From Betaproteobacteria bacterium (GTDB lineage Bacteria; Pseudomonadota; Gammaproteobacteria; Burkholderiales; SG8-41): DNA of 51,152 nt. The notes under the pieces are model-generated. The model did no database searches. It was not told the origin of the DNA and saw nothing but the letters and a program-made list of their open reading frames with translations. Positions 16,834 to 33,087 of the stretch are shown here, piece after piece (position 1 is the stretch's first letter; each line of letters begins with the position of its first letter). Where the stretch lies: positions 1 to 51,152 of the forward strand of contig JACPTK010000079.1 in the NCBI GenBank assembly GCA_016192825.1, given 5' to 3'. The translations under genes and the position numbers were made by a program.

Positions 16834-17561
16834 GGGCCTCGGTCGTCCTGCCCACCTACAACGAGGCCGGCAACATCGTCAGCCTAGTTGAGGAAATCCT
16901 GAGAAATTTCCCGCCGGACGTGGATCCGGAAATCCTCGTGGTCGACGATGACAGTCCGGACAAGACCTGCGAGGTCGCCAGAAAGGCGTTTCAGGCAAAC
17001 CCGAACGTTCGCGTGATTTTGCGAACGGAGGACCGTGGCTTTGCGAAATCGATTCGCGCCGGCATCGAGCTCGCCACCGGCGAGTGGATCATCGTGATGG
17101 ACTCCGATTTCGTGCACGACCCGGCCGAAATCCCGCGCATGCTGCACGTCGCGTGCGTCTACGATATTGTCAGCGGCTCGCGCTTCTGCGCAGGTGGCAA
17201 TATGCAGGACAGGACGCATTACCTCGCCAGTTTGGCGTACAACTGGTTTCTTCGCGCAGTACTGCGCACCCAGCTTCAGGACAACCTCGGCGGCTATTTC
17301 AGCATGAAGCGGGAGACGATGCTTTCGCTTCCGCTGGACGACATTTTCTACGGCTACGGCGAATATTTCTTCCGTCTTCTCTACTTTGCCCAGCGGCGTG
17401 GATTGAAAATCGTCGAGATCCCGGCCATCTACCGCGCTCGCACTTACGGCGCCAGCAAATCGAATTTTCTGAAAATGCTGTTTACCTATTCCAAGGCCGC
17501 GATATTGCTCAGAATGAGCGGCACAGGTCGCGCAAGTGCGCGCGAATCGAACCTGCAGTGA
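16830..17561 (+). CDS. Dolichol-phosphate-mannose-synthase-like GT2 glycosyltransferase
   Basis: GT-A fold family 2 transferase of the Dpm1 type, 243 residues. It has ASVVLPTYNEAGNI at the start, VVDDDSPDKT and the metal-binding region VMDSDFVHDP, followed by SGSRFCAGG. Members transfer a sugar from an NDP-sugar to polyprenyl phosphate, giving a donor for periplasmic transferases. No C-terminal membrane segments are present, so it resembles the short, peripheral forms. The acceptor-using partner could be the GT-C-like membrane protein at 11105. Last gene of the coupled set; its end is only 4 bases from the convergent flippase gene. Confidence 0.83.
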   Translation: MRASVVLPTYNEAGNIVSLVEEILRNFPPDVDPEILVVDDDSPDKTCEVARKAFQANPNVRVILRTEDRGFAKSIRAGIELATGEWIIVMDSDFVHDPAEIPRMLHVACVYDIVSGSRFCAGGNMQDRTHYLASLAYNWFLRAVLRTQLQDNLGGYFSMKRETMLSLPLDDIFYGYGEYFFRLLYFAQRRGLKIVEIPAIYRARTYGASKSNFLKMLFTYSKAAILLRMSGTGRASARESNLQ

Positions 17562-17565
17562 CCTT

Positions 17566-19083: not shown

Positions 19084-19160
19084 TCGATTGGCCGTTTCAA
19101 CGTAGATGATTTTCCTCGCTAGCTCGACGAGGTTACCCGGAACCGCGATGATATGCTGGA

Positions 19161-20204
19161 TCAGGGCAAGGCTTCGCCGCTTAGTCCGATGCGTAGCCGG
19201 ACGATGACCCAACCAAGCAATCGATTCATCAGCGTCGGCCAGAGATCGAACGGGCTCAATATCGCGAAAGCCAGCGCAACCCGAAGCCGCTCAAGTTTTC
19301 GCGGAACCCAGCGATCGATGAAATCCAGGGCGAGGCGCCGCCAACCCGAAAACCTCGCCGCAACTGTGGAGATCGCCGTGCCAGCGGACTCACGCACAGC
19401 GGCGAATCGGTAACGCAGCACAATGCGCTCGACAAACGCCTTGGTGAACAATTGCGGGGATAACTCGGGGCCGCGTACCGCAAGGCGATCCAGCATTGCC
19501 TCGAGCCGCGCCACGTCGCTGAGGGTGGACGAGGAGTGGCTGCCGGCGTGGATGCGGAAGGCGCCGAAGGGTTCGGGCGTGTATGCCACGCCATGGCGGC
19601 TCGCGACCACGAGCGCCGTGATGAGATCGGCCGCGCCGCGATACGCCGGATCAAAAGCGTCCGCGGCCTGCACGGCGTCGCGCCGGTAAATGAGGGTGGT
19701 GCCCGTGAACCAATTGCCGACGCGATGCGCGAGCTTCACGCACTCCTCCGGAGAAAACACCCGGTCCCGGAGCGCAATCACGGGCGACGGATGCAGGCGC
19801 ACCAGGTTGTCCGCTTCGTCCACGCGCCATACCATCGCCGACCACAGGCCAATGCCCGGAGACCTCGACAGGCAATCCCGGGCGCGAGTGAAAATACCGG
19901 GGAGCACGAAATCGTTGGCTGCCAGAAACAGCACGTAGTCGCTTCGTGCGCGCTCGAGCGCCCTGTCCACCGCCCCGTACACGCCGAGGTTCGACGCGTT
20001 GACGATGAGCTCCGCCCGGCTGTTGCCGGAAATGATCTGCCGAATGAGCGCCACACTGTTGTCGGTCGAGGCGTCATCCACGATGATCAGTTGATCGGCG
20101 GGTGTTTCCTGCTCGAGCACCGAGCGCAGGCAGCGGGGCAGAAAGCGAGCGTCGTTCCAGTTCGGAACGATGACGGCGATGGTGGGCAGCGGCGCGGCGC
20201 TCAT
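19161..20204 (-). CDS. Family 2 glycosyltransferase
   Basis: A 347-residue GT-A transferase with TIAVIVPNWNDARFLPRCL at the N-terminus, VDDASTDNS and FLAANDFVLPG (a DxD-like metal site altered to AND). It is followed by a helical C-terminal region with a hydrophobic segment (VALAFAILSPFDLWPTLM). It probably adds one sugar of the repeat unit at the cytoplasmic membrane face; the donor is unknown, though the operon suggests the GDP-sugar made upstream. ATG 20204 is preferred over ATG 20246, whose extra residues are non-conserved. Confidence 0.82.
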   Translation of the reverse strand: MSAAPLPTIAVIVPNWNDARFLPRCLRSVLEQETPADQLIIVDDASTDNSVALIRQIISGNSRAELIVNASNLGVYGAVDRALERARSDYVLFLAANDFVLPGIFTRARDCLSRSPGIGLWSAMVWRVDEADNLVRLHPSPVIALRDRVFSPEECVKLAHRVGNWFTGTTLIYRRDAVQAADAFDPAYRGAADLITALVVASRHGVAYTPEPFGAFRIHAGSHSSSTLSDVARLEAMLDRLAVRGPELSPQLFTKAFVERIVLRYRFAAVRESAGTAISTVAARFSGWRRLALDFIDRWVPRKLERLRVALAFAILSPFDLWPTLMNRLLGWVIVRLRIGLSGEALP

Positions 20205-20358
20205 CGACGACACCGGACAGATCACGCGCGCAGCGGGTGGCCGCACCCCGTGACGCCCGCCGCCGCATTTGCCCTGGAACCCCCGTAGCTACTGCCTGGA
20301 TTCGGGGGCCGCGGCCCGGTCGAGGGCGGCTGCCGGTCTGCGGGCGCTGCGCACACCT

Positions 20359-21297
20359 TCAGACGTTTCCGTATACGGTGTTGCGGATCATCGCGTAGCC
20401 CTTGATCAGCTCGCGGATGCCGAAATCAAGGGAATGGGCGGGCTTGAACCCGGTCGCCTCGATTTTCGCGTTGGACACGACGTAATTGCGCTGGTCGGGA
20501 TCCTTGGCCACCGGCGCCTCCAGGATCGAGAAATCCGGCACGTGCCTGCGGATCGCCTCGCACAGCTCGCGCTTGGACAGGTTGGCGTCGGACAGCCCGA
20601 CGTTGTAGATCTGCCCGCCCATGCGCTCCACGTTCGAAATGCCGTGCAGGAAGGCGCGCGCCACGTCGCGGACGTGGATGTAATTGCGCTTGAAGTGGCC
20701 CTCGAACAGGACCACGAAGCGGTCGGTCACGGCGCGGTAGGTGAAATCGTTGACCAGCAGGTCGATGCGCATGCGCGGCGACATGCCGAACACCGTCGCC
20801 AGCCGCAAGCTGATCGAATTCTCGCGCGCCATCAGCACCTTCTCCACCTTGACCTTCTCGATCGCGTACAGGGAGATCGGCCGCAACTCCGATTTCTCGT
20901 CGCAGGAGTTGTCGGCGTTGCCGGATCCGTAGGCGCTGTTGGTCGTCGGCATGATCACGATCTGCTCCCGCGACAGGCGCCCGAACAGGTCGATCACCGC
21001 GTCGTGGTTCGTGGTCACCGCCCCGACCGGGTCCCGCTGGCACAGCGGCGCGCCGACGAGGGCGGCCAGCGGGATGACGATGTCGGCGCGCTTGAGCAGC
21101 GGCGCGACCCGCGAGGCATCGCGCACGTCGCCGCGCACGACGTTGAAGCGGGGATGGGCGCAGGCGGCCGCGAGGCTGTTCTGGCCGTACATGAAGTTGT
21201 CGATCACCGTCACCTCGTGCCCGGCGTCGAGCAATGCCGGCACCAGCATCGAGCCGATGTAGCCCGCCCCGCCGGTGACCAGTACCTGGAATGGCAT
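20359..21297 (-). CDS. Extended SDR NAD-dependent sugar epimerase/dehydratase
   Basis: A 312-residue nucleotide-sugar SDR. The cofactor loop GGAGYIGS sits near the N-terminus, with VIDNFMYGQ, a TTNSAYGSG serine/threonine motif and the catalytic YAIEK (YxxxK). FKRNYIHVRDVARAF and YNVGLSDANLSKRELC follow. It could epimerise or reduce a 4-keto-6-deoxyheptose intermediate; specificity cannot be assigned. It lies downstream of hddC (61-base gap) at the end of the sugar-pathway part of the operon. ATG 21297 is preferred over 21318 because it gives the usual short N-terminal lead to the Rossmann strand. Confidence 0.82.
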   Translation of the reverse strand: MPFQVLVTGGAGYIGSMLVPALLDAGHEVTVIDNFMYGQNSLAAACAHPRFNVVRGDVRDASRVAPLLKRADIVIPLAALVGAPLCQRDPVGAVTTNHDAVIDLFGRLSREQIVIMPTTNSAYGSGNADNSCDEKSELRPISLYAIEKVKVEKVLMARENSISLRLATVFGMSPRMRIDLLVNDFTYRAVTDRFVVLFEGHFKRNYIHVRDVARAFLHGISNVERMGGQIYNVGLSDANLSKRELCEAIRRHVPDFSILEAPVAKDPDQRNYVVSNAKIEATGFKPAHSLDFGIRELIKGYAMIRNTVYGNV

Positions 21298-21358
21298 GAC
21301 TCGGAAGTCCCCGCTCAAATGGCCGCGCGCGCGGGAATTATACCGTCCGCGCGGCGCG

Positions 21359-22060
21359 TCACGCCGGCAGCACCTGCGCCGCGCGCGCGTAGTCCTCGGG
21401 CACGCCGATGTCGATGAAGCGCGCCTCGCTCTCGAATCCGAACACGCGGGCGCCGGCGTGCAGCAGCGCCGGCAGCAGTTCGCTCTCGAGCGAGACGCGG
21501 TCGCCCGGCCGGAAGCCGGTGCGCGAAAAGGCTTCGGGCTCGATCAGGTAGACGCCGCCATTCGCCAGGGGCGGAACCCCGGAACCCGGGGCGCGCATCG
21601 CCGTGATGCGGCCTTCCGCGCCGCACTCGACGGGCGTGTAGCGCCCGGCATCCGTGGCGCGGAACAGCGCCATGGTAAACAGCGCTGCGCGCGCGGCGTG
21701 ATACCGGTGCATGGCTGCAGCGTCGAGCGCAAAGAACGTGTCCCCGTTCGCAGCGAATACCGGAGCGTCCGCGCCCGTCCCGGCGAGCGCCAGCAGCAGC
21801 GCGCCACCGGTGTCGAGCGGCTCGCGTTCCACGGCGTACTCGACGGGCAGCGAGCGGTACGCCGCTCCGAAGTGCGCTTCCACCATCTCGTGCTTGTATC
21901 CCACCGAAAGCACGAAGCGCGTCGCGCCCTGCCCGATCCAGTAATCCATCAGGTGCTCGAGAAACGGGCGCCCGGCCACCGGCGCGAGCGGCTTGGGCAC
22001 GTCGGGCACGGCGCCGCGCAGCCGCTGGCCCAGCCCGCCGGCGAGAAGAATGACGTTCAT
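21359..22060 (-). CDS. hddC: D-glycero-alpha-D-manno-heptose 1-phosphate guanylyltransferase-like nucleotidyltransferase
   Basis: A 233-residue nucleotidyltransferase that should couple heptose 1-phosphate to GTP. It begins NVILLAGGLGQRLRG, continues VPKPLAPVAGRPFLEHL, and has EREPLDTGGALLLAL, the metal-binding NGDTFF and the late FIDIGVPEDYARA motif. Size and motifs match HddC of the GDP-heptose pathway; a hexose-1-phosphate transferase is the alternative. Its usual partner hddA is in the same operon (30411-31496), with gmhA/gmhB at the left end of the window. Confidence 0.85.
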   Translation of the reverse strand: MNVILLAGGLGQRLRGAVPDVPKPLAPVAGRPFLEHLMDYWIGQGATRFVLSVGYKHEMVEAHFGAAYRSLPVEYAVEREPLDTGGALLLALAGTGADAPVFAANGDTFFALDAAAMHRYHAARAALFTMALFRATDAGRYTPVECGAEGRITAMRAPGSGVPPLANGGVYLIEPEAFSRTGFRPGDRVSLESELLPALLHAGARVFGFESEARFIDIGVPEDYARAAQVLPA

Positions 22061-22144
22061 GTTCGCGCGGATGTCGCCGATGCCGGGGTCTATCGCCCGC
22101 CACGCAGGCGGCGCTTCTCCCGGTTGAAAGCGGTCATCGCCGCC

Positions 22145-23131
22145 TTACGCCGCTCGCGGCGCGGGCCGCGGCAGCCCCCGCGAGGCGCGGTACCAATCGA
22201 TGGTGCGGCGCAGGCCTTCCTCGAGGCCGATCCTGGCCTTGAATCCGAGCAGCGTCTCGGCGCGCGAGGTGTCGATCAGCCGCACCGGAATCATGGTCGG
22301 CCGGTCGCTGTTGTAGGTCACGCGCGCGTCGCGAAAACCGTCCAGTGCGAGCACCCTGTCGAGGATTTCGCGCACGCGATAGCCGCGCCCCAGTCCGATA
22401 TTGATCGCCGCGTAGGCATCGAGCCGCTCCACCGCGCGCACCATCGCCTCGACCATGTCGTCCACGTAGATCGCGTCCCGCACTTCGCTGCCATCGCCCC
22501 ATACCTCGAACGGATCCCGGCGCTCGACTGCCTTGCGGATGAACGCGGGGATGACGTGCGAGGTGGCGAACTCGAAATCGTCGTTCGGGCCGTAGACATT
22601 GGTCGGGCGCAGCACGATCGTCGCCATGCGGCGCGCGAGCTTCTCGCCGTACATCCGGCACAGCACCTCGGTGAATCGTTTGGCCCAGCCGGCGAAATAG
22701 TATTTCTCGAACGGCTCGCCGTCGAACATCTGCTCCTCGCGCACCGGCCGGTCGGTGACCGGATAGGCGACGGTGCTGGAGAGCCAGAGAAGCTTCTCGA
22801 CCCGCGCCGCGTAGGCGGCCTCGAGCATCTGCGTGTTGATCAGGATGTTCGGCGTCACGTGCACCATCGGAGTGGCGGCGATGGTCGCCGCGCCCGAGGT
22901 GTTGGCGGCGCACAGAAACACGATCTGCATGCCCTCGACGCTGCGCCGGCAGTCGACGCCCTGCGTGAGGTCGCAGCGCAGGTATTCGATGCGCGGATCG
23001 ACGATCAGCGGCTCGCGGCGGTGAAAGGTGGCGCGCACCCGCGCCCCCTCCTCGAGGAGCCGCGCGACGAGGCTGCTGCCGATGAGGCCCGTCGCGCCCG
23101 CCACCAGTACTTTCCTGCCGCGCAAAGACAT
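22145..23131 (-). CDS. GDP-fucose-synthase-like SDR with a displaced catalytic tyrosine
   Basis: A 328-residue extended SDR with VLVAGATGLIGSSLV, LWLSSTVAYP, LRPTNVYGPNDDFEF and WGDGSEVRDAIYVDDM. It resembles GDP-4-keto-6-deoxy-sugar epimerase/reductases such as fucose synthase. In the active-site helix the sequence reads KYYFAGWAKRFTE: the lysine is present, but the residue four before it is Ala, with tyrosines at -6 and -7. This differs from the usual YxxxK. It may be a subfamily feature or a changed activity. Located 4 bases downstream of the aldo/keto reductase, it probably acts on the GDP-4-keto-heptose intermediate. Confidence 0.82.
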   Translation of the reverse strand: MSLRGRKVLVAGATGLIGSSLVARLLEEGARVRATFHRREPLIVDPRIEYLRCDLTQGVDCRRSVEGMQIVFLCAANTSGAATIAATPMVHVTPNILINTQMLEAAYAARVEKLLWLSSTVAYPVTDRPVREEQMFDGEPFEKYYFAGWAKRFTEVLCRMYGEKLARRMATIVLRPTNVYGPNDDFEFATSHVIPAFIRKAVERRDPFEVWGDGSEVRDAIYVDDMVEAMVRAVERLDAYAAINIGLGRGYRVREILDRVLALDGFRDARVTYNSDRPTMIPVRLIDTSRAETLLGFKARIGLEEGLRRTIDWYRASRGLPRPAPRAA

Positions 23132-23134
23132 GCC

Positions 23135-24094
23135 TCAACGCCCCGCGAAAAAGCTCGATTGCCGGTAGATGCCGGCGATCCGGGCGCGCTCCGCCTCGTC
23201 CAGCGGCGGCAGCGCGCTCGCGCCGGCGTTCTCCTCGACGTGGGACGCGGTCAGCATCCCCGGGATTGCGGTCGAAACGCAAGTATAGGAAAGGCAATAG
23301 CGCAGGGCAAACTGCGCCGGGGATTGGCCGGGCAGCTCGGATATCAGGGCCGCGAACCGCTCGGGCGCGCTCGCCCAGCGCTCGCGCTGGTCCGCGCTCC
23401 AGCGGCCCCGGTGATCGCGTTCGTGAAACGGGTCGCGCGCCGTATAGCGGCCGGTGAGAAATCCGAAGCACAGCGGCGTGCGGACGATGATCCCCGTTCC
23501 CTCGCGCGCCGCGAGATCGAACAGCCCGCGCTCGGCCGCGCGCTGGTCGAGCAGGTTGAAATTGATCTGCAGGCAGGCGAAGCCGAAGCGCCCGGCCGCG
23601 GCCCGGCCTTCCTCGGGCGAGCGCGCCGACAGCCCGATCGCGCGCGCCTTGCCTTCGCGTTGCAGGGACTGCAGCGCGTCGAGCGTCTCGTCGCTGAACG
23701 CGCCCGGCGGCGGGCCGTGCAGCTGGTAGAGATCGACGTAGTCGGTGCGCAGGCGCCTCAAGCTCGATTCGAGCGAGCGCCGCAGGTGGCCCGGCGAAAA
23801 GTCGTGGTGCTTTCCGTCGGGGAGCAGCCCGGCCTTGCTGGCGATCACGACTTCGCCGCGCCGCCCCGCGAACGCCTCGCCGATCAATTCCTCGCTGCGG
23901 CCGTGGCCGTAGAAGTCCGCGGTGTCGTAGAAGGTGATCCCGCGATCGAGGGCGGCGCGCAGCGCGGTGAGTGACTCCGCGCGGTCGGTCGGCCCGTAGG
24001 CGACCGCGCCGCCGGCGTCCCCGCCAATGCCCCAGGCCCCGAAGCCGATCTCGGAGACCTCGAGGCCGGTGCGCCCGAGCGCGCGGTAACGCAA
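23135..24094 (-). CDS. Aldo/keto reductase
   Basis: NADPH-dependent oxidoreductase of the AKR superfamily, 319 residues, TIM-barrel type. The catalytic tetrad is visible: Asp57, Tyr62 (DTADFYGHG), Lys87 (ASKAG) and His126 (YQLHGPP). It also has GFGAWGIGG at the start and SEELIGEAF. In sugar operons such proteins reduce keto groups of NDP-sugars, for example C4 or C3 ketones after dehydration or deoxygenation. It lies 3 bases after the radical SAM gene and 3 before the SDR, so it is clearly co-transcribed. A general metabolic AKR is less likely given this spacing. Confidence 0.87.
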   Translation of the reverse strand: MRYRALGRTGLEVSEIGFGAWGIGGDAGGAVAYGPTDRAESLTALRAALDRGITFYDTADFYGHGRSEELIGEAFAGRRGEVVIASKAGLLPDGKHHDFSPGHLRRSLESSLRRLRTDYVDLYQLHGPPPGAFSDETLDALQSLQREGKARAIGLSARSPEEGRAAAGRFGFACLQINFNLLDQRAAERGLFDLAAREGTGIIVRTPLCFGFLTGRYTARDPFHERDHRGRWSADQRERWASAPERFAALISELPGQSPAQFALRYCLSYTCVSTAIPGMLTASHVEENAGASALPPLDEAERARIAGIYRQSSFFAGR

Positions 24095-24097
24095 GGC

Positions 24098-26173
24098 TCA
24101 GTAATGGCCGGCGAGCTCGGGCTCGACCGACTCATTGCCGTAGAGGTAGGCGCCCTTCTTGTTGCCGTACCAGATGACCTCGCGGTACCAGTCTTCCCAC
24201 GAGTGATACACGTGCCGGGTGCGCTCGACGCGGTTGACGGTGCGGCGCTGCTCGAGCGCAACCTTGTCGCCGACCAGCGCGGCGCGGTAGTAATCCCAGA
24301 GGTTGTAGCGCGTCTCGAGCTGCAGGTCCGACGTCTGGAACGGCAGCTTGATGAGGCTGCGGTTGAGCTCGATCGCCTCGTGCAGCACGCCCTGCGGCAG
24401 CGCGCGGTCCCGTGCCGCGAGGAATTCACCGAGCAGCGACTCGGCTTCGTCGTAAAAGGCCTTGATGCGGCCCTCCACGCACAGCTGGATCAGCACGTAT
24501 TCATCGGCCGGCCAGTAGATGTCGAGCCACTCGCTGGAATGGCAGTATTCCGCGCCGCCGGCCTGGATGTCGCGCGCCTTGTCGAGAAAGAAGCGCCGGA
24601 TTCCGGCGATGGCCGGATAGCGCTCCGCGCGCTCGCCGAGGAAGACCTCGATCAGGTCGCGATAGCTTGCGCCGCAGATTTCATGAAACAGGATCAACGG
24701 GATCTGCAGCACCTTGTCGAAATGCAGGAGCGCCGTCATCCAGCTGAAGGTGCGCGCGCGGGCCCAGTCCTCCCCGGGCATGGATGCCGTCGCGACGACC
24801 AGGTCCTGCACCTCGGAGATCTCCTCCCGGGACTCGGCGAGCGACCCGTGGATGTTGATGATCGCGGTTTGCACCGTGACCATGCCGTACTTTCTCCGGT
24901 ATTCCGGATCGCCCATCTCGGCGTTGGGCAGGATCGAGAGGTTGTTGAACTGGATGCGGTTGTGCTGCCCGTTCTCGATCACGCTCGACACGCCGTCGGC
25001 GAACGAGTCGTAGGTCTCGCCCGGCAGGCCGAGGATGAGATCGGTGTAGGTCTCGACCCGGTCGCGGGTGAAGCGGCGCTGCAGCTCCTGGAACGACTCC
25101 GTCGAGATGTTGTGGCGCTTGATCGCATCCAGCGTGCCGGCGTCCACCGACTGCAGCGCGATCGCGACACCCTTGTTCAGCCCGGCGTCCGACAGCAGCT
25201 TCTGGACCCGGTAGGCGCGCTCGGTGCCGTTCTTGGTGTTCTGCACCGAAAGCGCCTTCGGATAGCCGAGGCGCTGCTTGGTGTCGGCGACGTACTGCGT
25301 GATCTCGTAGTCGCGCGCCAGCATCGCGTAGTTGGCGTCGCAGCAGAAAATGAACTCGATTTTCTGCTCGGCGAACCAGTCCACCTCGCGCGTCAGCCGC
25401 TCCATGTCGAACTGGCTCACCTTGGCGGCGACCGCCGAGCCCCAGTCGCAGAACGTGCACTGGAACGGGCAGCCGCGGTTGGTCTCCCACAGGATCAGCC
25501 ATTTTTCATGGGGGTTCGCCCGCATCAGCGGCTCGAAGACGCCGCTGAGGTAGGGCGAGGGGATCACGGAGATGTCGCGCAGCCTCTCGCACCGCGCATT
25601 GTTGGCGAAGCTGCCGTCAGCCCGCAGCCAGCTCGTCGAGGGCACGTTGTCCCAGGTGCGCGAGGGAAAGTTCTCGAGGATGCCGAGGAAGATCGGCTCG
25701 CCTTCACCGTGGCAGGCGATGTCGACGAACGGGTGCTCGCGCAGGAAGGCCTCGGCGCGATCGGGCACCTGCGGCCCGCCGAAGACGATCAGGGTGTGCG
25801 GCCGCGCCGCCTTGAGGCGGCGGGCGATCTCGAGCGAGATGCGGATGTTCCAGACGTAGGCGCTGAAGCCGATGACGTCGGCGCCGAGCAGGCGCTCAAC
25901 CGCAGCCTGCACGGGGAGGCGGGAATACACCGGCAGGGTGAAGGTGTAGCGCTGCGGGTGACGGGCGAATTTCCGCGCATAGGCCTGCAGCAGGCCGGCG
26001 GCATAGGGCAGATAGTTCTGGCCCGAGAAGCTGTTGTTGATCTGGACCAACGCCACCTTGAGCGGCGGGCCGTTGCCCTCCGGCGCCGGGATGGCGCCCG
26101 CGGACGGGGCGTGGGCATGCTCAGGGATGCCCGCCCGGGCGGCACGAAGCCGGAGATTTTGTATGTTGCTCAC
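24098..26173 (-). CDS. B12-binding-domain radical SAM enzyme
   Basis: A 691-residue protein. A cobalamin-binding-type Rossmann domain spans about residues 38-165 (VALVQINNSF, GADVIGFSAYVWN, LIVFGGPQVP). It is followed by a radical SAM domain with the [4Fe-4S] motif CPFQCTFC (Cys235, Cys239, Cys242), and then a ~200-residue helical C-terminal domain. Class B radical SAM enzymes of this architecture often methylate unactivated carbon or phosphorus using methylcobalamin. Some instead rearrange or epimerise. In this operon it could C-methylate or otherwise modify the GDP-heptose or the glycan. No DxHxxG cobalamin-ligand motif is obvious. It generates 5'-deoxyadenosine, which links it to the salvage pair at 36430-39673. 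Confidence 0.88.
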   Translation of the reverse strand: MSNIQNLRLRAARAGIPEHAHAPSAGAIPAPEGNGPPLKVALVQINNSFSGQNYLPYAAGLLQAYARKFARHPQRYTFTLPVYSRLPVQAAVERLLGADVIGFSAYVWNIRISLEIARRLKAARPHTLIVFGGPQVPDRAEAFLREHPFVDIACHGEGEPIFLGILENFPSRTWDNVPSTSWLRADGSFANNARCERLRDISVIPSPYLSGVFEPLMRANPHEKWLILWETNRGCPFQCTFCDWGSAVAAKVSQFDMERLTREVDWFAEQKIEFIFCCDANYAMLARDYEITQYVADTKQRLGYPKALSVQNTKNGTERAYRVQKLLSDAGLNKGVAIALQSVDAGTLDAIKRHNISTESFQELQRRFTRDRVETYTDLILGLPGETYDSFADGVSSVIENGQHNRIQFNNLSILPNAEMGDPEYRRKYGMVTVQTAIINIHGSLAESREEISEVQDLVVATASMPGEDWARARTFSWMTALLHFDKVLQIPLILFHEICGASYRDLIEVFLGERAERYPAIAGIRRFFLDKARDIQAGGAEYCHSSEWLDIYWPADEYVLIQLCVEGRIKAFYDEAESLLGEFLAARDRALPQGVLHEAIELNRSLIKLPFQTSDLQLETRYNLWDYYRAALVGDKVALEQRRTVNRVERTRHVYHSWEDWYREVIWYGNKKGAYLYGNESVEPELAGHY

Positions 26174-26180
26174 GGCTCGA

Positions 26181-27194
26181 TTAACCGGCTTCGGCGGCCG
26201 CTTCGGCGGCCGCGCGCTTGCGCCAGTGCTCGAGCAGGTGCGAGAGGCTCTCGTCGAACGAGTAGCGCGGCTTCCAGCCCGTCGCCGCCGCGAACTTCTC
26301 GACGTTCGGAATCTGCAGCGTCACGTCCGCGGGCCGCAGGAGCTGCGGATCGACCCGGCTCGGTATCGGGCAGCGCGCCATGGCCTTGAGCCGGTCGAGG
26401 ACGTCGCCGACCTTCATGACCGTCGCCCCGCCGATGTTGTAGGCCTCGCCCGGCGCGCAGTGCAGGAGCGCCTCCCAGTAGGCGCGCATGCCGTCGCGCA
26501 CATCCACGAGGGTGCGCACCGAATCGAGGTTGCCGTGCGTGAGCTCGCGCTGCAGGCCCAGCTCGGTGCGCGCGACCTGGCGCGCGAACGAGGTGGCGAA
26601 CAGATCGGTGCGGCGCGGATTGAGGTAGGCGAACATCCGGGTGCGGATGATGCGCATGCCGTAGGCTGCGAAGTAGGTGTAGCCGAGCAGGTCCTGGGCG
26701 ACTTTCGAGACGGCATAGGGACTCGCCGGGCGCAGCGGCGCGTCCTCGCGGATCGGAACGTCCTTCGGGTCCACCTGGCCGTAGACCTCCGAGGTGCTGC
26801 ACAGCTGGATCCACGGGTCGATGCCGGAAAGCCGGATTGCCTCGAACAGGTTGCTCGTGCCGATGATGTTGTTCGAGAGCACCGCGTTCGGCGTCGTGAA
26901 GGAGGCGCGCACGTTGGCGTGCGCCGCGAGGTGAAACACCGCGTCCGGCTTGACGTCGCGGACCACGGCGTACACCGACGCGAAGTCGTTCAGGTCGGCT
27001 TCGTGGACCGTCGCGCGCCCCGTCACCGCGCGCAGGTTGTCCTGGGTCGTGCTGTGCCAGCGCGCCAGCCCGTGCACCTCGACGCCGCGACAGTGCTCCA
27101 GGATGTGTTCCGCGAGATAGCTGCCGCCCGAGCCTCCGATGCCGGTGATGAGGACGCGGCGGAATTCGCGCTGATCGGCCATGGGTCCGCTCAT
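26181..27194 (-). CDS. GDP-mannose/GDP-heptose 4,6-dehydratase-family SDR (DmhA/Rmd-like)
   Basis: A 337-residue SDR of the Gmd/Rmd group. The cofactor loop reads GIGGSGGSYLAEH where Gmd has GITGQDG. FHLAAHANVRASF, the serine motif LCSTSEVYG and the catalytic YAVSK (YxxxK) are present, as are NPRRTDLFATSFARQ and NIGGATVMKVGD. It could be the GDP-heptose 4,6-dehydratase (DmhA function) of this operon or a GDP-4-keto-sugar reductase. A second, canonical gmd is already present at 9810. Start ATG 27194 overlaps the stop of the ColD-like gene (ATGA); an internal ATG at 27182 is also possible. Confidence 0.8.
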   Translation of the reverse strand: MSGPMADQREFRRVLITGIGGSGGSYLAEHILEHCRGVEVHGLARWHSTTQDNLRAVTGRATVHEADLNDFASVYAVVRDVKPDAVFHLAAHANVRASFTTPNAVLSNNIIGTSNLFEAIRLSGIDPWIQLCSTSEVYGQVDPKDVPIREDAPLRPASPYAVSKVAQDLLGYTYFAAYGMRIIRTRMFAYLNPRRTDLFATSFARQVARTELGLQRELTHGNLDSVRTLVDVRDGMRAYWEALLHCAPGEAYNIGGATVMKVGDVLDRLKAMARCPIPSRVDPQLLRPADVTLQIPNVEKFAAATGWKPRYSFDESLSHLLEHWRKRAAAEAAAEAG

Positions 27195-28393
27195 CCCGTC
27201 GGCAAGGCGTTGAGGATCTCGCACAGGCGCAGGATCTTCCCGCGGTCGAGATCCGGGTAGTTGCCGATATAGAAGCCGAAGAAGTGGACGTGATCGACGC
27301 GCGGGTATTTCTCGTGCTCGCGCTCGCCGACCACGCGCTTCAGGTACGGCTGGCGCAGCTGGTTGCCCCCGCCCGAGGCACCGCGGCGGAATTCCACGCC
27401 GTGCGCGCGCAACGCCGCCTCGACGTGGTCGCGCAGCACCGCGTCGGCGCGCCCGAGCACCAGCGTCAAGGCGTAATTGCAGCTGCCCTCGGTCGCAAAC
27501 CCGGTCTGGTAGCGCGCGGGGTCGAGGTGATCCAGAAACACGCGCAGGTTGCCGGCGCGGATGGCGTTGTTCGCGTCCAGGCGCTTCAGCTGCGAGCGGC
27601 CGATGAGGGCGTTGATCTCGGTGCTGCGCATGTTGTAGGCGGGAAACGCGAAAATGAACTCCGGGTTGAGGTCGGGATGCGCCTCGCGGTAGCGCCGGCG
27701 CAGCGCCTCCGAGCCCGCCTCGCGCACCATCCCGTGGGAACGGAACATGCGCACCGCTTCGTGGAGCTCCGCGTCGTCGGTGCACACCATGCCGCCCTCG
27801 ATGGTACTCAAGTGGTGGGCGTAGTAGAAGGAGAAATTCGAGGCGAGGCCGAAGGTGCCCAGCTTGCGTCCCTTGAATGTCGCGCCGTGCGATTCGCAGG
27901 CGTCCTCGATCAGCGGGATGCCGCGCGCGGTGAGCTCGTCCAGCAGACGCTGGGTGAGGCCGTTGTAGCCGAGGATATGGGTGAGAAACACCGCACGCGT
28001 GCGCGGCCCGAGCTTGCGCAGCACTTCCTCGTTGTCCATGCCCAGGGTGCGCGGATCGATGTCGACGAACACCGGCTGGTATCCGCACTGCAGCGCCGCC
28101 GCCACGTCGGAAACCCAGGTGAGCGGCGGCACGATGATTTCTCCGCCCCCGTGGAGCTCGCGCAGCGCGGCGAGCGTCAGGAGATTCGCCGAGGAGCCCG
28201 AGTTCACGAACACGCTGTGCCGCACGCCGAGCCAGGCCGACCATTCCTCCTCGAAGGCGCGCACGTTTCCCGACTGCGTGAGCATCACGTCCTCTCCCCG
28301 CAGATAGTCGATCACGGCGTCGAGGTCGGCGCGGGTGATGTTGTTCTTCATCAGCGGCCAGTCGAGCGCGGCCGGCGCGGCGCGGACGTTCAC
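27191..28393 (-). CDS. ColD-like PLP-dependent GDP-4-keto-6-deoxysugar 3-dehydratase
   Basis: A 400-residue DegT-fold protein in which the PLP lysine is replaced by histidine: SFYYAHHLSTIEGGMV, His193 at the lysine position. This matches ColD (E. coli SHHIATMEGG), which removes the C3 hydroxyl of GDP-4-keto-6-deoxymannose. Further shared features are VNSGSSANLL, EDACESHGATF, FPAYNMRSTEINALIG and the C-terminal FGFYIGNYP. The CWC iron-sulfur cysteines of RfbH/E1 enzymes are absent, so it should not need a ferredoxin-reductase partner. Predicted product: a 3,6-dideoxy-4-keto GDP-sugar. GTG 28393 overlaps the E1-beta stop by one base. An internal ATG at 28351 falls inside the conserved N-terminus and is unlikely. 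Confidence 0.88.
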   Translation of the reverse strand: MNVRAAPAALDWPLMKNNITRADLDAVIDYLRGEDVMLTQSGNVRAFEEEWSAWLGVRHSVFVNSGSSANLLTLAALRELHGGGEIIVPPLTWVSDVAAALQCGYQPVFVDIDPRTLGMDNEEVLRKLGPRTRAVFLTHILGYNGLTQRLLDELTARGIPLIEDACESHGATFKGRKLGTFGLASNFSFYYAHHLSTIEGGMVCTDDAELHEAVRMFRSHGMVREAGSEALRRRYREAHPDLNPEFIFAFPAYNMRSTEINALIGRSQLKRLDANNAIRAGNLRVFLDHLDPARYQTGFATEGSCNYALTLVLGRADAVLRDHVEAALRAHGVEFRRGASGGGNQLRQPYLKRVVGEREHEKYPRVDHVHFFGFYIGNYPDLDRGKILRLCEILNALPTG

Positions 28394-29439
28394 TAGAATG
28401 GCCCCTTGAACTCGATCAACTTAAGGTCGGCGCGCGCGGCCGGCAGCCACCCCTGTGGCGCGCCCTTCACGAGGTCGAAGGCGGCGGCCGCGATGGTCCG
28501 CGCATTCGGGTAGAACAGCGCCTCGAGGCTCGGCGTGGTGGGGCACGGCACGGGCGCGAACCCCATGCGCCGCAGCTTCCAGCCCGGCGCATCCTGCATC
28601 CGCTCGGCGAGGCTCGCGACGATCTCCGCGCCGGCGCCGCAGGTCATCCAGCCGTTGTCGACCACGATCAGCCGCCCGGTGCGGCGAACCGACGCCTCGA
28701 TGGTGCCGATATCGAGGGGGGCGAGCCATATCGGGTCGATGACCTCGGCGCTCACGCTGACTTCCTCGAGATAACGCTGGGCGCGAAGGCATTCGACCTG
28801 CATGTACGAGATGCCGACCAGCGTCACCTCGCGCCCCGGCACGGCGACGCGCGCCTTCCCCGGAGCGACGACATAGTCGCCTTCCGGCACGCGACCCTTC
28901 TGGTAATAGAGGATACGGTGCTCGACGAACATGACGGGATTATCGTCGCGCACCGCCGCCGCCAGACAGCCCTTGGCGTCGTACGGGGTCGAGGGCGCGA
29001 CCACCTTGAGGCCCGGCACGTGCATGAACAGGGGATAGAGCCCCTGCGAGTGCTGCGCGCCCTGGCCCCAGCTCTTGCCGATGATCGAGCGCACCACCAG
29101 CGGCACGTGCTCCTGCCCGCCGAACATGGAATGCGTCTTCGCCGCCATGTTGACGAGCTGGTTCATCGCCAGCAGCACGAAATCCATCCGGATGTGGACG
29201 TGAATCGGGCGCAGGCCCGCGAGCGCCATGCCGATCGCCGCGCCGCACATCGCGTCCTCCGACAACGGCGTGCCGAATACCCGGTCGCCACCGTACTTCC
29301 CGGCGAGTCCGCGCGTCGTGCCGAGAATGGCCTTCGGATCGTCGACGTCGAGGCCGAACAGCACGACGCCCGCGTCGCGCGCCATTTCCAGGTCGGTGGC
29401 CTCGCGGATCGCGTCGACGTAGGAAAGCGTTCGCTCCAC
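28393..29439 (-). CDS. E1-beta-like thiamine-diphosphate enzyme subunit, second pair
   Basis: A 348-residue beta subunit with Glu61 (GTPLSEDAM) at the cofactor-activating position, GAAIGMALAGLRPIHVH, SWGQGAQHSQG, HVPGLKVVAPSTPYDAKG and FVEHRILYYQKG. The C-terminal domain has VIDPIWLAPLD and VVDNGW. It begins at GTG 29439, 7 bases after the alpha subunit, and ends overlapping the ColD-like gene. With its alpha partner it should form an alpha2beta2 thiamine enzyme. Lacking E2/E3, and placed beside a 3-dehydratase, it is a candidate for adding a two-carbon branch to a 4-keto-3,6-dideoxy sugar, as YerE does with a different protein in yersiniose synthesis. That role is inferred. Confidence 0.87.
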   Translation of the reverse strand: MERTLSYVDAIREATDLEMARDAGVVLFGLDVDDPKAILGTTRGLAGKYGGDRVFGTPLSEDAMCGAAIGMALAGLRPIHVHIRMDFVLLAMNQLVNMAAKTHSMFGGQEHVPLVVRSIIGKSWGQGAQHSQGLYPLFMHVPGLKVVAPSTPYDAKGCLAAAVRDDNPVMFVEHRILYYQKGRVPEGDYVVAPGKARVAVPGREVTLVGISYMQVECLRAQRYLEEVSVSAEVIDPIWLAPLDIGTIEASVRRTGRLIVVDNGWMTCGAGAEIVASLAERMQDAPGWKLRRMGFAPVPCPTTPSLEALFYPNARTIAAAAFDLVKGAPQGWLPAARADLKLIEFKGPF

Positions 29440-29446
29440 GGCCGGC

Positions 29447-30403
29447 TCAACGATAGAGGTGCATCAACAATTCGCCGGCAGGCGGAAAGGGGCTCGCCTC
29501 GGCAAACGCGAAGGCTTCGGCGATCTCGGCTTCGATCGCCTCGTCGATGACGGAGCGCTGCGGCGCCGGGAGCATTCCTCCCAGCCGCGCGACCTGGTCG
29601 TTCTTCCTCCACGCCTCGGTTTCCTCGCGGCTGCGAAAGCCGAGCTCGAAATCCTCGCCCGGACCGACGTGCTCGAGCCAGCGGCTGGTGATGCACTCGA
29701 TGTAGCGCGGGCCCGGGCTGCCCGAGCGAACCGCGGCCGCGGCTGCGCGCGCAGCCTGGAATATGCGGAAGACGTCGCCGTCCTCTATCGTTTCAGCCGG
29801 TATCCCGTAGGCGCGCACCCGCGTGCAGATATCCAGCGTCGCCTGCCGGCGGCTCTGGTGCGTGTGGATCGCGTAGCCGTTGTTCTCGCATACGAACAGG
29901 ATCGGCAGCTGCTTGAGCGCGGCAAAATTGAGGCTCTCGGCGAACACGCCCTCCTCGGTGGCGCCGTCGCCGTGAAAGCTGACGGCGATCCGGTTTTCGC
30001 GGCGGTGCTTCAGGGCATAGGCATAGCCGACGGCATTCGGGATCGTCGTGCCGACCACGGCCGAGGTGCCCATCACGCCGCGCTCGACGTCGACCAGGTG
30101 CATGGAACCCCCCTTGCCGCGGGCGCAGCCGTCGGCTTTTCCGTAGAGCTCCGCAATCATGCGGGGGAGGCTCCCGCCCTTGGCAAGATACATGGCATGG
30201 CCGCGGTAGGAGCCGAACACGACGTCGCGGGGCTCGAGCGCTTCGCACACGCCCGTCGCCACCGCCTCCTGCCCGATCGACAGGTGGACGGGACTCTTGA
30301 TGCTGTCGCTCGGATAGACGCGCACGATCTCTTCCTCGACGCGCCGGATGCGGCGCAGCGAGCGGTAAAGGCGGACCGTGAGCTCGAGCTCGTCGCGTTT
30401 CAT
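29447..30403 (-). CDS. E1-alpha-like thiamine-diphosphate enzyme subunit, second pair
   Basis: A 318-residue alpha subunit with intact motifs: VHLSIGQEAVATG, GSYRGHAMYLAKGG, RGKGGSMHLVD and the TPP/Mg motif GDG (residues 145-147) followed by CENNGYAIH (Asn174/175). ATG 30403 matches the family start; an upstream frame to 30571 overlaps hddA and encodes low-complexity residues. It lies 7 bases after hddA and 7 before its beta partner. The motifs are canonical, unlike the first E1-alpha at 6385-7503, so this pair is the more likely to act by conventional chemistry. The donor (pyruvate or a ketose phosphate) is not readable from sequence. Confidence 0.88.
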   Translation of the reverse strand: MKRDELELTVRLYRSLRRIRRVEEEIVRVYPSDSIKSPVHLSIGQEAVATGVCEALEPRDVVFGSYRGHAMYLAKGGSLPRMIAELYGKADGCARGKGGSMHLVDVERGVMGTSAVVGTTIPNAVGYAYALKHRRENRIAVSFHGDGATEEGVFAESLNFAALKQLPILFVCENNGYAIHTHQSRRQATLDICTRVRAYGIPAETIEDGDVFRIFQAARAAAAAVRSGSPGPRYIECITSRWLEHVGPGEDFELGFRSREETEAWRKNDQVARLGGMLPAPQRSVIDEAIEAEIAEAFAFAEASPFPPAGELLMHLYR

Positions 30404-30410
30404 GGCCTGA

Positions 30411-31496
30411 TCAGGTCGCCTTCGCCCCGGGGCGCGCCGGGCCGGGGCGATCGGCGTCGCGGAAAGGCTCGATCGCGCGCAGCGCCCTGCCGCGCGCCTC
30501 CTCGGAAAAATCCTCCTCGTGGTCGAAGAAGACGATCCGGCTGCCGGAGAAATCGAAGCGAAAGGGGACATGGATCAGCTTGTGGAGCGCTTTCTTGATT
30601 CGTGGCTGGTCGGCGGGGCGCGCGAACAGCAGCAGAAACCCGCCGCCGCCGGCCCCCAGCAGCTTGCCGCCCAACGCGCCCGCCAGGCGGGCAGCCTCGT
30701 AGAGCTGGTCGACGTAGTCGGTCGAGATGCCGCGGTCGAGGGAGCGTTTGGCCTGCCACGTCTCGTGCAGCAGCGCTCCGAAGCGCGGGAGATCGCCGCG
30801 GCGAAGGATGTCGAGCGCCTCCTCGACCATCTGGCCCATGAGCCGCAACTGCGGCTGCTTCGCGCCCAGGTTCTCGACGTAAGTACTCGCGACCGCCGAC
30901 GCGGTGCGGCTGATGCCGGTGAAAAAAAGCATCAGGTGGTCGTTCAGCTCGTGCAGGCGTTCGGCGTGCAAGGTGAGCGGCGTGACGACGATCTCGTCGT
31001 TGCGGAGGAATTCGACGTGGTTCAGGCCGCCGTGCGCCGCGAACACCTGGTCCTGGGAACCGACCGTGTCGCGCAGCCGTTCCTGCTCGACATGAATCGC
31101 CTCGCGCACCAGCTCGACCCGGGTGGGCATGTAGCCCTTGAGCGCGTGGACCGCGTGCAGCAGGCCGACGGCGAACGACGAGCTCGAGCCGATGCCGCTG
31201 CGGGCCGGAAGATCGCCGTCGTGATGGATCTCGACGCCCTGCTCGACGCCGAGGTGGCGCAGCACCTCGCGCACCGCCGGATGCGCGATCTCGTCCACGC
31301 TCATGCGGTCCTCGATCTTCGAGTAGACGACGCGAAAGCGGTGCTCGAAAAAGGGCGGCAGGTAACGGCAGGTGATCCAGCAGTACTTGTTGATCGCGGT
31401 GCCCAGGACCCGCCCGCCGTTTTCGCGATACCAGGCGGGATAGTCGGTGCCGCCTCCAAAAAAGGAAATGCGGAAAGGCGTGCGGCTGATGATCAT
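30411..31496 (-). CDS. hddA: D-glycero-alpha-D-manno-heptose 7-phosphate kinase-like GHMP kinase
   Basis: GHMP-family kinase, 361 residues, that should phosphorylate heptose 7-phosphate at C1 in the GDP-heptose route. It starts MIISRTPFRISFFGGGTDYP, a hallmark of HddA-type kinases, and has the ATP loop PARSGIGSSSSFAVGLL and the C-terminal GAGGGGFLLLF motif. Fucokinase-like activity is the main alternative. First gene of the twelve-gene minus-strand operon; an AT-rich stretch 35-55 bases upstream probably holds the promoter. I see no strong ribosome-binding site before ATG 31496. Confidence 0.87.
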   Translation of the reverse strand: MIISRTPFRISFFGGGTDYPAWYRENGGRVLGTAINKYCWITCRYLPPFFEHRFRVVYSKIEDRMSVDEIAHPAVREVLRHLGVEQGVEIHHDGDLPARSGIGSSSSFAVGLLHAVHALKGYMPTRVELVREAIHVEQERLRDTVGSQDQVFAAHGGLNHVEFLRNDEIVVTPLTLHAERLHELNDHLMLFFTGISRTASAVASTYVENLGAKQPQLRLMGQMVEEALDILRRGDLPRFGALLHETWQAKRSLDRGISTDYVDQLYEAARLAGALGGKLLGAGGGGFLLLFARPADQPRIKKALHKLIHVPFRFDFSGSRIVFFDHEEDFSEEARGRALRAIEPFRDADRPGPARPGAKAT

Positions 31497-31538
31497 GACG
31501 CGCCGTCTGGCCAGATTGGCGTTAAGAATTAAGAAGTT

Positions 31539-31544
31539 ATTATA
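31539..31544 (-). promoter_or_regulatory. Possible -10 element of the hddA operon
   Basis: A perfect TATAAT on the minus strand inside an AT-rich island (about 31520-31550) that stands out from the GC-rich surroundings. Transcription would begin some 36 bases before hddA. No good -35 is seen at the expected distance. The overlapping plus-strand TATACT (31541-31546) with TTGGCG 19 bases upstream could serve the other direction. Confidence 0.35.
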
Positions 31545-31805
31545 CTAGTGACGGGTTGCCTGCGCGACCGGCTCCGGGAGCCGGCCTGCCGCAGCGGCCC
31601 GCGCAGGCTTTGCGGCGCCGGCACGGTCGAAGGGCATGCCCGGTTGACGGAAAAACCGCAACGCGCGGCGGCAAGGCGCATCCGCGGCTCGCTCGGGGCC
31701 GGTCAAAGCGGTTCCGGCCGATCGCTTCTCCGTCGCTCGATGTCGAGCAGGCGCCCGCGCGTCGCCCCTGCAACCGTGCCGACGGATGCCGGCCGGAGCG
31801 CCCTC

Positions 31806-31811
31806 TATAAT
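31806..31811 (+). promoter_or_regulatory. Possible -10 element of the GT4/UDP-aminosugar operon
   Basis: A perfect TATAAT 38 bases before ATG 31849, implying a leader of about 30 bases. The -35 region is GC-rich and does not match TTGACA, so an activator or a weak promoter is possible. Confidence 0.4.
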
Positions 31812-31848
31812 GCGTTGCCATGCACCACCTGCCGAGCACGGCGGCGTC

Positions 31849-33087
31849 ATGAAGATACTGCTGGTAACCCAATACTTCTGGCCGGAGAATTTCCGCATCA
31901 ACGATCTCGCGCTCGGCCTGCTCGGCCGCGGGCACGAGGTGACGGTATTCACCGGCAAGCCCAATTATCCGGGCGGGCGGTTTTTCAGCGGCTACGGCTT
32001 CTTCGGGCGCGCGCGGGAGGACTATCACGGCGTGAGCGTCATCCGGGTTCCGTTGATACCCCGTGGCGCGGGCGGGCCGCTCGCGCTGGCTCTCAATTAC
32101 CTCTGGTTTGCGCTGATCGGCTCGCTGCTCGCGCCTTTCCGCTGCGGTGGAAACTACGATGCGATCCTGGTCTACGAGGTCTCCCCCGTCACGGTGGGAC
32201 TGCCGGCACTGGTCCTGAAATGGGTGAAGCGCGCGCCGGTGCTGTTCTGGGTGCAGGACCTGTGGCCGCAGACCCTGTCCGCAACGGGCGCCGTGCGCGC
32301 GCGCTGGATGCTCGCGCTGGTGGACCGTCTGGTGCGCTTCATCTACCGCCATTGCGACCTCGTGCTGGTCCAGGCGCGGGCGTTCACGCCCCATGTGCAG
32401 GCGCAGGGCGTGTCGGCCGACCGGATCCGCTACTACCCCAACACGGCCGAGGCGTTGTACCGGCCGGTCACCGTGGAGCCGCAGGCGCCCGAGCGCCGAT
32501 TGCTGCCGGAGGGCTTCCGCGTGATGTTCGCCGGCAACATCGGCGCGGCGCAGGATTTCGAAACCATACTCGGTGCCGCCGAAATGCTCGGGGACGAGCG
32601 CGGCGTGCACTGGGTGGTCCTCGGCGACGGGCGCGAGTACGACCGGGTGGCGCGGGAAATCGCGCAGCGTGACCTGGGCGGGACCGTGCATCTGCTGGGC
32701 AGGCATCCGGTAGAATCCATGTCGCGCTTTTTCGCCCTCGCCGACGTCATGCTCGTCACATTGCGCAAAGAACCGATCTTCGCGTTGACCATTCCCTCCA
32801 AGGTCCAGTCCTATCTTGCCTGCGGGCGCCCGATCGTCGGCGCGCTCGACGGCGAGGGCGCGAACGTGATCGGGGAGTCCGGGGCGGGCGTCGCGGTGGG
32901 CGCCGGCGACGCGCGCGCGCTGGCGCAGGCGGTGCGCGATCTGCACCGCATGCCGGCGCCGGAGCGCGAGGCCATGGGCGCGCGCGGGCGGCGCTATTTC
33001 GAGCAGCACTTCGAGCGTGAGCTTCTGTTGACGCGCCTTGAGCAGTGGCTGCAGGGCCTGGCGAAGGGACACCAATGCGCATCCTGA
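31849..33087 (+). CDS. WbuB-like family 4 glycosyltransferase
   Basis: GT-B transferase, 412 residues. It has KILLVTQYFWPENFRINDLA at the N-terminus, FTGKPNYPGGRFF, WVQDLWPQTL, FAGNIGAAQDFETI and the donor-site region IPSKVQSYLACGRPIVGALD. These segments are typical of WbuB/WcaI-type enzymes, which transfer L-fucosamine-like residues and usually sit with UDP-L-FucNAc or UDP-L-QuiNAc genes, as here. ATG 31849 is chosen because the frame upstream is not conserved and the -10 at 31806 suits it. It overlaps the reductase gene by 13 bases. It probably adds the L-aminosugar made by the next three genes. Confidence 0.88.
   Translation: MKILLVTQYFWPENFRINDLALGLLGRGHEVTVFTGKPNYPGGRFFSGYGFFGRAREDYHGVSVIRVPLIPRGAGGPLALALNYLWFALIGSLLAPFRCGGNYDAILVYEVSPVTVGLPALVLKWVKRAPVLFWVQDLWPQTLSATGAVRARWMLALVDRLVRFIYRHCDLVLVQARAFTPHVQAQGVSADRIRYYPNTAEALYRPVTVEPQAPERRLLPEGFRVMFAGNIGAAQDFETILGAAEMLGDERGVHWVVLGDGREYDRVAREIAQRDLGGTVHLLGRHPVESMSRFFALADVMLVTLRKEPIFALTIPSKVQSYLACGRPIVGALDGEGANVIGESGAGVAVGAGDARALAQAVRDLHRMPAPEREAMGARGRRYFEQHFERELLLTRLEQWLQGLAKGHQCAS

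Follow-up and report, generated by a model that had tools for sequence, protein, structure and literature searches.

Which sugar is made by the ten consecutive minus-strand genes on contig JACPTK010000079.1 of a Betaproteobacteria bacterium (order Burkholderiales, assembly GCA_016192825.1)? The contig of 51,152 nucleotides, analysed whole and called the window here, belongs to a 5.1 Mb genome, and all ten open reading frames (ORFs) are present, running from position 31496 down to 20359. The intergenic gaps in transcription order are 7, 7, −1, −4, 7, 3, 3, 84 and 61 bases, and the ORF coordinates thus confirm an earlier note on this DNA that described tight spacing with wider spacers around hddC (84 and 61 bases). 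The family names given to all ten proteins in that note agree with Pfam and NCBIfam profiles; all ten stay below curated NCBIfam cut-offs. Reading the pathway from sequence, we propose that the operon makes a GDP-activated heptose, deoxygenated at C3 and branched at C4, for a surface polysaccharide, and we put the probability of this reading at about 0.5.

The last gene of the operon (20359–21297, minus strand; ATG start, with a longer frame opening at TTG 21318) encodes a short-chain dehydrogenase/reductase (SDR). A profile of this protein and seven relatives matches PDB entry 6vo6 (6vo8 has the same sequence) with 488 bits, the next entry scoring 104. An AlphaFold2 model predicted from 14 sequences (mean predicted local distance difference test score 90.3) matches the 6vo6 and 6vo8 chains in Foldseek with template modelling scores of 0.91–0.95 and 52–55% identity. 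Both entries are titled Cj1427, that of 6vo8 with NADH and GDP-D-glycero-D-mannoheptose bound, and residues Y144 and K148 of the SDR Tyr-xxx-Lys motif are invariant in both alignments of the last SDR. Judged by profile and model, the protein is an orthologue of Cj1427 (MlghA type) and the predicted GDP-D-glycero-D-manno-heptose C4-dehydrogenase, which makes heptose the likely substrate. Campylobacter Cj1427 oxidises C4 of GDP-heptose, its bound NADH being reoxidised by 2-oxoglutarate (PMC10680097; PMC7949155), and together with a ColD-like C3-dehydratase it converts GDP-heptose to GDP-3-deoxy-4-keto-heptose in vitro (PMC10680097; papers are cited here and below from the excerpts available). 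With a Cj1427-type SDR a 4-ketone is obtainable without losing O6, and, given the published reaction, the 4-ketone for the ColD-type enzyme is possible without any 4,6-dehydratase. The earlier note, which missed the Cj1427 type of the last SDR, had proposed a 4-keto-6-deoxy route; neither the origin of the ketone from a 4,6-dehydratase nor a 6-deoxy product is required. Near the Solidesulfovibrio cluster described below, L121:18122-19324 is annotated as an L-2-hydroxyglutarate oxidase gene (lhgO); since L-2-hydroxyglutarate is the Cj1427 by-product, lhgO may recycle 2-oxoglutarate.

The ColD-type protein (27191–28393, minus strand) matches PDB entry 2gms with 170 bits and has histidine at the ColD position that is occupied by lysine in 2r0t and by asparagine in 3b8x. 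The catalytic histidine and the 2gms match uphold its earlier assignment as a ColD-like sugar 3-dehydratase dependent on pyridoxal 5′-phosphate (PLP) and support a predicted role as C3-dehydratase of a GDP-4-keto sugar. An aminotransferase role is rejected because histidine replaces the PLP lysine. Among the DegT homologues in the loci examined (n = 135, including the window's two), this residue is His in 103, Lys in 30 and Ala in one, with one uncovered.

The two genes preceding the dehydratase encode a thiamine diphosphate (ThDP)-dependent E1 pair. Specifically, E1 alpha (29447–30403, minus strand; PF00676, 210 bits) keeps GDG..NN, while E1 beta (28393–29439, minus strand; PF02779/PF02780; 212 bits to the pyruvate dehydrogenase PDB 1ik6) keeps SE and QHS, all of which we take to be ThDP-enzyme motifs. 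The alpha subunit is 56–57% identical to E1 alphas encoded near a Cj1427-type SDR and a His-type DegT on three Azospirillum plasmids. The aKADH2 class is marked by alpha and beta E1 subunits with a ThDP motif, and the operon pair has both; neither the window's second E1 alpha nor two viral E1 alphas match these motif patterns. The second E1 pair of the window lies at 5313–7503 (minus strand), near ManC and a canonical Gmd, and has GFGEAATDEG in its alpha subunit in place of the operon's GDGATEEG, an altered ThDP motif. A pyruvate dehydrogenase (PDH) complex role for the operon pair is disfavoured, as the contig carries no E2 gene (four E2 matches occur genome-wide). By analogy, a role in sugar branching is plausible: the two-subunit PDH-like enzymes AviB1/B2 and Pau11/12 are the proposed installers of an acetyl branch at C4, whose reduction has been demonstrated for the aldo/keto reductase (AKR) Pau7 (PMC4753412), while the aKADH2 sugars listed in PMC12247030, which counts about 120 clusters, all bear a C2 branch. 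The earlier note knew of no GDP-6-deoxyheptose or 3,6-dideoxyheptose route that includes both a two-subunit thiamine enzyme and a B12 radical SAM enzyme; two-subunit thiamine enzymes (AviB1/B2, Pau11/12, aKADH2) are known in nucleotide-sugar branching, on antibiotic sugars. In viral, SAR86, SAR116 and Omnitrophota loci, very short E1-type pairs (about 200–230 plus 180–205 residues) take the place of the full-length one; one such pair lies at L011:5886-7012, with similar ones in L133, L134, L140 and L144, and the short beta of L011 matches the pyrimidine-domain family only, without the transketolase C-terminal domain.

Genes around the C4-dehydrogenase recur together in other genomes. In a scan of genome contigs, we defined 27 core loci as C4-dehydrogenase orthologues of at least 47% identity and 52 controls as the other SDR matches (25–42% identity, including seven loci at 40–42%), both sets being drawn from the matches listed; fragment L167 was dropped from both, and several contigs of the 27-locus set end near the C4-dehydrogenase gene. 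Among these listed matches, core and control loci have HddA at 17 versus 0, HddC at 14 versus 2, Fcl at 13 versus 6, a B12 radical S-adenosylmethionine (SAM) enzyme at 11 versus 0, His-type DegT at 10 versus 1, Lys-type DegT at 3 versus 16, SIS at 7 versus 3, Gmd at 4 versus 12 and AKR at 0 versus 1. One of the three Lys-type core homologues stands beside a His-type one, and two Lys-type homologues occur in L122. Within the same order, the C4-dehydrogenase gene is found in 20 of 399 genomes including the window's own, and in 13 of 159 genera. The main stretches of the other 19 (20 kb or less) hold His-type DegT in 18, HddC in 16, E1 alpha, E1 beta and rS506, a B12 radical SAM enzyme of about 505 residues, in 13 each, HddA in 12, GmhA in nine, Fcl in eight, GmhB in six and a TokK-type radical SAM gene in none; adjoining stretches add one each to E1, rS506 and HddA. 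The order rS506-HddA-E1a-E1b-ColD-HddC-GmhA-C4-dehydrogenase is typical (L231, L233, L234, L237).

The same core extends beyond the order. In a phylum sample, 18 of 398 genomes including the window's own have the C4-dehydrogenase, and the 14 loci examined of 16 outside the order (8.5–28.5 kb each; G516 and G544 left out) carry HddA (10), His-type DegT (7), HddC (7), rS506 (6), Fcl (4), Gmd (4, three weak), another DegT (3) and a TokK-type radical SAM gene (2). At least 80 viral loci were found in IMG/VR with six ColD-like peptide patterns, one of which, NFSFYYAH, spans the histidine, so that its presence in all of them is partly a matter of selection. Merging identical dehydratase ends leaves 56 distinct proteins, accompanied by HddA in 46 cases, C4-dehydrogenase in 44, B12 radical SAM in 44, E1 alpha in 28 and E1 beta in 29. 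Furthermore, one stretch of Solidesulfovibrio magneticus RS-1 plasmid pDMC1 encodes rS506, the kinase, the E1 pair, Fcl, DegT, the C4-dehydrogenase, the nucleotidyltransferase and SIS, and Azospirillum plasmids are further named relatives; none of seven regions from the plasmid and annotated-phage searches has all ten genes. The gene set that the earlier note proposed to seek in other genomes therefore recurs, as a core, far above control SDR loci. Of the co-inheritance on which that note staked its reading, the part concerning the core stands, and the Gmd-like, TokK-type, AKR and Fcl-like genes belong to a rarer variant. On phage-like contigs (L011, L023, L054 and others) the heptose unit sits among genes that, judged by eye, look like those of replication and recombination.

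The thiamine enzyme of these clusters is exchangeable. An E1 pair or a split transketolase, itself a two-subunit ThDP enzyme, is present at 16 of 19 order loci (15 of them on main stretches) and 10 of 14 phylum loci versus 8 of the 52 listed controls (Fisher p 1e-7 and 1e-4, respectively), and also at 10 of the 27 listed core loci and 61 of the at least 80 viral loci. Of 71 loci lacking an E1 pair, 28 have the split transketolase, and no locus with the pair has it (four sets, matches listed); in L232, L240, L257 and L258 it is flanked by the dehydratase on one side and HddA or Fcl on the other. In viral loci, with kinship uncorrected here and in the correlations that follow, the HddA, dehydratase and C4-dehydrogenase distances run closely together (r 0.91–0.95), as do those of E1 beta and rS506 (r 0.94, n = 18); in bacterial loci, correlation extends to all 15 pairings among six genes (r 0.40–0.82). 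We interpret the module as a heptose unit plus a branching unit.

Heptose activation is represented by two genes of the operon. The HddA-like GHMP kinase (heptose 7-phosphate C1-kinase; 30411–31496, minus strand) scores 133 of the 600 bits required by the equivalog NF049969, and the HddC-like nucleotidyltransferase (heptose 1-phosphate guanylyltransferase; 21359–22060, minus strand) 148 of the 300 bits required by NF049965. Their nearest solved structures are named heptose enzymes: 3k85, a D-glycero-D-manno-heptose 1-phosphate kinase (137 bits), and 6jq8/5xhw, a putative 6-deoxy-D-mannoheptose pathway protein. At the left contig end lie a GmhA-like SIS protein (sedoheptulose 7-phosphate isomerase; 570–1157, minus strand; TIGR00441 54 bits, cut-off 209) and, starting with TTG 7 bases past its stop, a GmhB-like HAD phosphatase (29–562, minus strand; TIGR00213 86 bits, cut-off 150) with FLDRDG and CPHRQDEGCACRKP, presumably GmhB-like motifs. 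On paper, these predicted genes complete the heptose supply in principle; other contigs of the genome hold a further GmhA-like gene (201 bits) and a further GmhB-like gene (96 bits). GDP-heptose activation by HddA and HddC, as claimed earlier, is supported by sequence, and the GmhA-like and GmhB-like genes in the window had gone unlisted. In Azospirillum, protein L118:10316-11614 fuses HddC-like and GmhB-like domains and adjoins the C4-dehydrogenase gene.

Four further operon genes form a rarer variant of the module. The Gmd-like SDR (26181–27194, minus strand) scores higher overall against the RMD-type reductase 2pk3 (204 bits) than against the Campylobacter GDP-heptose 4,6-dehydratase 7us5 (189 bits), but its CSTSEVYG, PRRxDxF and SVRT stretches are closer to 7us5, which has CSSSEVYG, than to 2pk3; we lean towards a probable GDP-heptose 4,6-dehydratase rather than an RMD-type reductase. 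The radical SAM protein (24098–26173, minus strand) matches TokK (7kdx, 331 bits) and CysS (215 bits), and reaches 280 of the 700 bits required for the KedN5 family. It shares with the TokK/KedN5/CysS C-methyltransferases the B12-binding and radical SAM domains, YVWN (as SAYVWN) and CxxxCxxCDWG (as CPFQCTFCDWGSA). Those enzymes act on natural-product scaffolds; the operon protein sits in a sugar cluster, and is a probable C-methyltransferase. Its earlier assignment as a B12 radical SAM enzyme is thereby supported, with C-methyltransferase-type relatives. Other genomes also have a B12 radical SAM gene beside the core, usually of another family, rS506; at E 1e-60, none of the order's 398 other genomes has the TokK type itself. 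The AKR (23135–24094, minus strand; PF00248, 223 bits) is followed by a GDP-fucose-synthase-like (Fcl-like) SDR (22145–23131, minus strand; NF047922, 164 of 500 bits required; PDB 8du0/7ll6, 136 bits), a putative C4-reductase and/or C5-epimerase. Azospirillum sp. TSA2s has a 47% identical AKR after a 52% identical radical SAM gene, and core and extra genes mix in L090, L139, L245, L262 and L270. In viral L090:7974-11105, an intein-like insert with LAGLIDADG_3 and a weak intein splicing domain splits the TokK-type gene at the Fe-S cysteine motif.

The gene identities, the catalytic signatures, the Cj1427 match and the co-inheritance of the core are direct observations; GDP-heptose formation, C4 oxidation and C3 deoxygenation are known from published enzymes. 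On this footing, the Cj1427-type SDR would oxidise C4 of GDP-heptose, and the ColD-type enzyme would remove the C3 hydroxyl to give GDP-3-deoxy-4-keto-heptose. The E1 pair, as an aKADH2 carboligase working without E2/E3, would add an acetyl group from pyruvate to the C4 ketone, and the AKR, a candidate reducer of the acetyl branch comparable to Pau7, would convert it to 1-hydroxyethyl. In the window variant, the TokK-type enzyme would then C-methylate the sugar or the branch, while the Gmd-like and Fcl-like SDRs would lead to 6-deoxy forms, epimers or a second heptose. This route would end in GDP-3-deoxy-4-C-(1-hydroxyethyl)-heptose or in its C-methylated, 6-deoxy counterpart; what we infer is which substrate the E1 pair uses, where the branch and the methyl group sit, the order of steps and the product.

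Several observations weigh against this pathway. The AKR is near only one of 19 order loci, one of 14 phylum loci and none of the 27 listed core loci, and the reduction of the branch is therefore not a conserved part of the module. One linear route has no need of both a Gmd-like gene and a C4-dehydrogenase. The E1 pair is likened to AviB1/B2 and Pau11/12 by description rather than by sequence, and among the listed matches E1 alpha and E1 beta are each at 6 of 27 core loci versus 3 of 52 controls (p 0.056). Three of 19, four of 14, 17 of 27 (listed) and 19 of at least 80 viral loci, some of them end-clipped, have no ThDP enzyme, and viral E1 beta distances correlate poorly with those of the heptose-unit genes (r 0.08–0.16). 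HddA, HddC, GmhA, GmhB and the radical SAM protein all score under curated cut-offs, and the pathway is a prediction from gene sequences.

Two other readings survive best, and we regard each as unlikely. In the route of the earlier note, the Gmd-like enzyme would give a 4-keto-6-deoxy and the ColD-type enzyme a 3,6-dideoxy sugar, followed by branching, C-methylation and reduction, with the Cj1427-type SDR in a side step. The 7us5-like stretches of the Gmd-like protein fit this route, as does the precedent of C. jejuni HS:5, which makes 3,6-dideoxyheptoses by such a route (PMC10440746), and a strong Gmd-like gene, the AKR and the core occur together in L245 and L270. However, the top PDB score of the Gmd-like protein is to an RMD-type reductase, and a Gmd-like gene is near one of the 19 order loci (with a strong match at one of 14 elsewhere in the phylum), whereas the Cj1427-type gene defines the module. 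Alternatively, and with about the same low likelihood, the locus would make two products: a branched heptose from the core (HddA, HddC, C4-dehydrogenase, dehydratase, E1 pair) and another methylated GDP-sugar from a sub-module of the Gmd-like, Fcl-like, TokK-type radical SAM and AKR genes. On plasmid p2 of Azospirillum sp. TSA2s, a 42-kb stretch carries a Gmd-like, two Fcl-like, a radical SAM and an AKR gene and a split transketolase, with no HddA, dehydratase or Cj1427-type match, and nearly all order loci have the core without the sub-module. Yet all ten genes form one tight run in the window, and the five mixed loci named above combine members of both sets.

For the commoner module (heptose activation, C4-dehydrogenase, His-type dehydratase, E1 pair and rS506), a bolder suggestion is a carbocyclic sugar of the caryose type, which we consider a long shot. 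As read from its name, caryose of Pseudomonas (Trinickia) caryophylli is a 3-deoxyheptose keeping O6 (C1–7) with a two-carbon, methyl-ended unit at C4 (C8–9), in which a C7–C8 bond closes a five-membered ring and the ido pattern would require C5 epimerisation. Every skeleton step except the C7–C8 bond would have a module enzyme; rS506 would close the ring, an idea that draws on the shared distances of E1 beta and rS506 in viral loci, and in the window variant the 1-hydroxyethyl branch would stay open and be methylated. In the family of G158, 3 of 388 genomes have the C4-dehydrogenase; two of these, congeneric and of 6.4 and 6.6 Mb, carry HddA, ColD-like, HddC and split transketolase genes (both transketolase halves in G809, one in G858), with no rS506 or E1 match within 40 kb. 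This result neither supports nor refutes the suggestion, leaning slightly against it. No caryose gene appears among the best literature matches. Caryophyllose, a 3,6-dideoxyhexose with a six-carbon branch that in M. marinum is linked to a YerE-like enzyme, was set aside as product, and bradyrhizose as guide, the source excerpt naming no gene role beyond a 4,6-dehydratase.

It is improbable that the E1 pair acts off the sugar, supplying a different step with an acyl- or acetoin-type product, and that the sugar is a plain 3-deoxy-heptose. In the 18-kb stretch L150, a C4-dehydrogenase, a His-type dehydratase, HddA and HddC occur with no ThDP match, and the evolution of viral E1 genes is uncoupled from that of the heptose unit, but E1 and split transketolase replace each other within the same clusters, and a branching role of aKADH2 enzymes is already known. 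Least probable is GDP-mannose or another hexose as substrate, suggested by ManC and canonical Gmd in the same window and by the sub-cut-off HddA and HddC scores, and opposed by the Cj1427 match with its heptose-bound 6vo8, the GmhA-/GmhB-like genes in the window, the GmhA-like gene in L121 and the HddC–GmhB fusion in Azospirillum.

The C3-deoxy, C4-branched heptose that we favour would draw on systems known separately. The Campylobacter jejuni capsular pathways (Mlgh, Ddah, HS:5) share GDP-heptose, a Cj1427-type C4-dehydrogenase, a ColD-like C3-dehydratase, a GDP-heptose 4,6-dehydratase and GFS-like reductases with the operon, but, in the excerpts available, lack a ThDP carboligase, an AKR and a B12 radical SAM enzyme. 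AviB1/B2, Pau11/12 and KbDH, with the AKR Pau7, share the PDH-E1-like pair, the 4-keto acceptor and AKR reduction of the branch, but build antibiotic sugars, whereas GDP-heptose genes and a polysaccharide flippase are found here. Yersiniose A (YerE) is alike in C4 acetyl branching of a 3,6-dideoxy-4-keto sugar in O-antigen, but is made from a CDP-hexose by a single ThDP flavoprotein. The best matches in the open literature, available in part and with subscription papers mostly outside, hold no link of GDP-heptose to a thiamine carboligase or a B12 radical SAM enzyme, which suggests that the combination of GDP-heptose remodelling with ThDP branching, and its product, are undescribed among them.

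The next genes on the same strand, a GT2 glycosyltransferase (19161–20246, minus strand; PF00535) and a Wzx-type polysaccharide flippase (17566–19212, minus strand; PF13440/PF01943), point to a surface polysaccharide. G+C content is 56–62% at window positions 2001–18000 versus 65–72% at 20001–50000; given this step near 19 kb, the left-hand glycan genes may have been acquired separately. An Rfam scan of the window gave nothing at the gathering threshold, and promoter and terminator patterns at 17000–32000 showed no excess over shuffled sequence.

If the proposed pathway is right, GDP-heptose remodelling and ThDP-dependent two-carbon branching, described only apart in the best open-literature matches, would be joined in one conserved module carried by bacteria and virus-like contigs. 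The module supplies concrete substrates for testing, and could account for orphan O-antigen sugars of branched or carbocyclic type. It would also be a source of new carboligases and new B12 radical SAM enzymes, with possible activity on nucleotide sugars.

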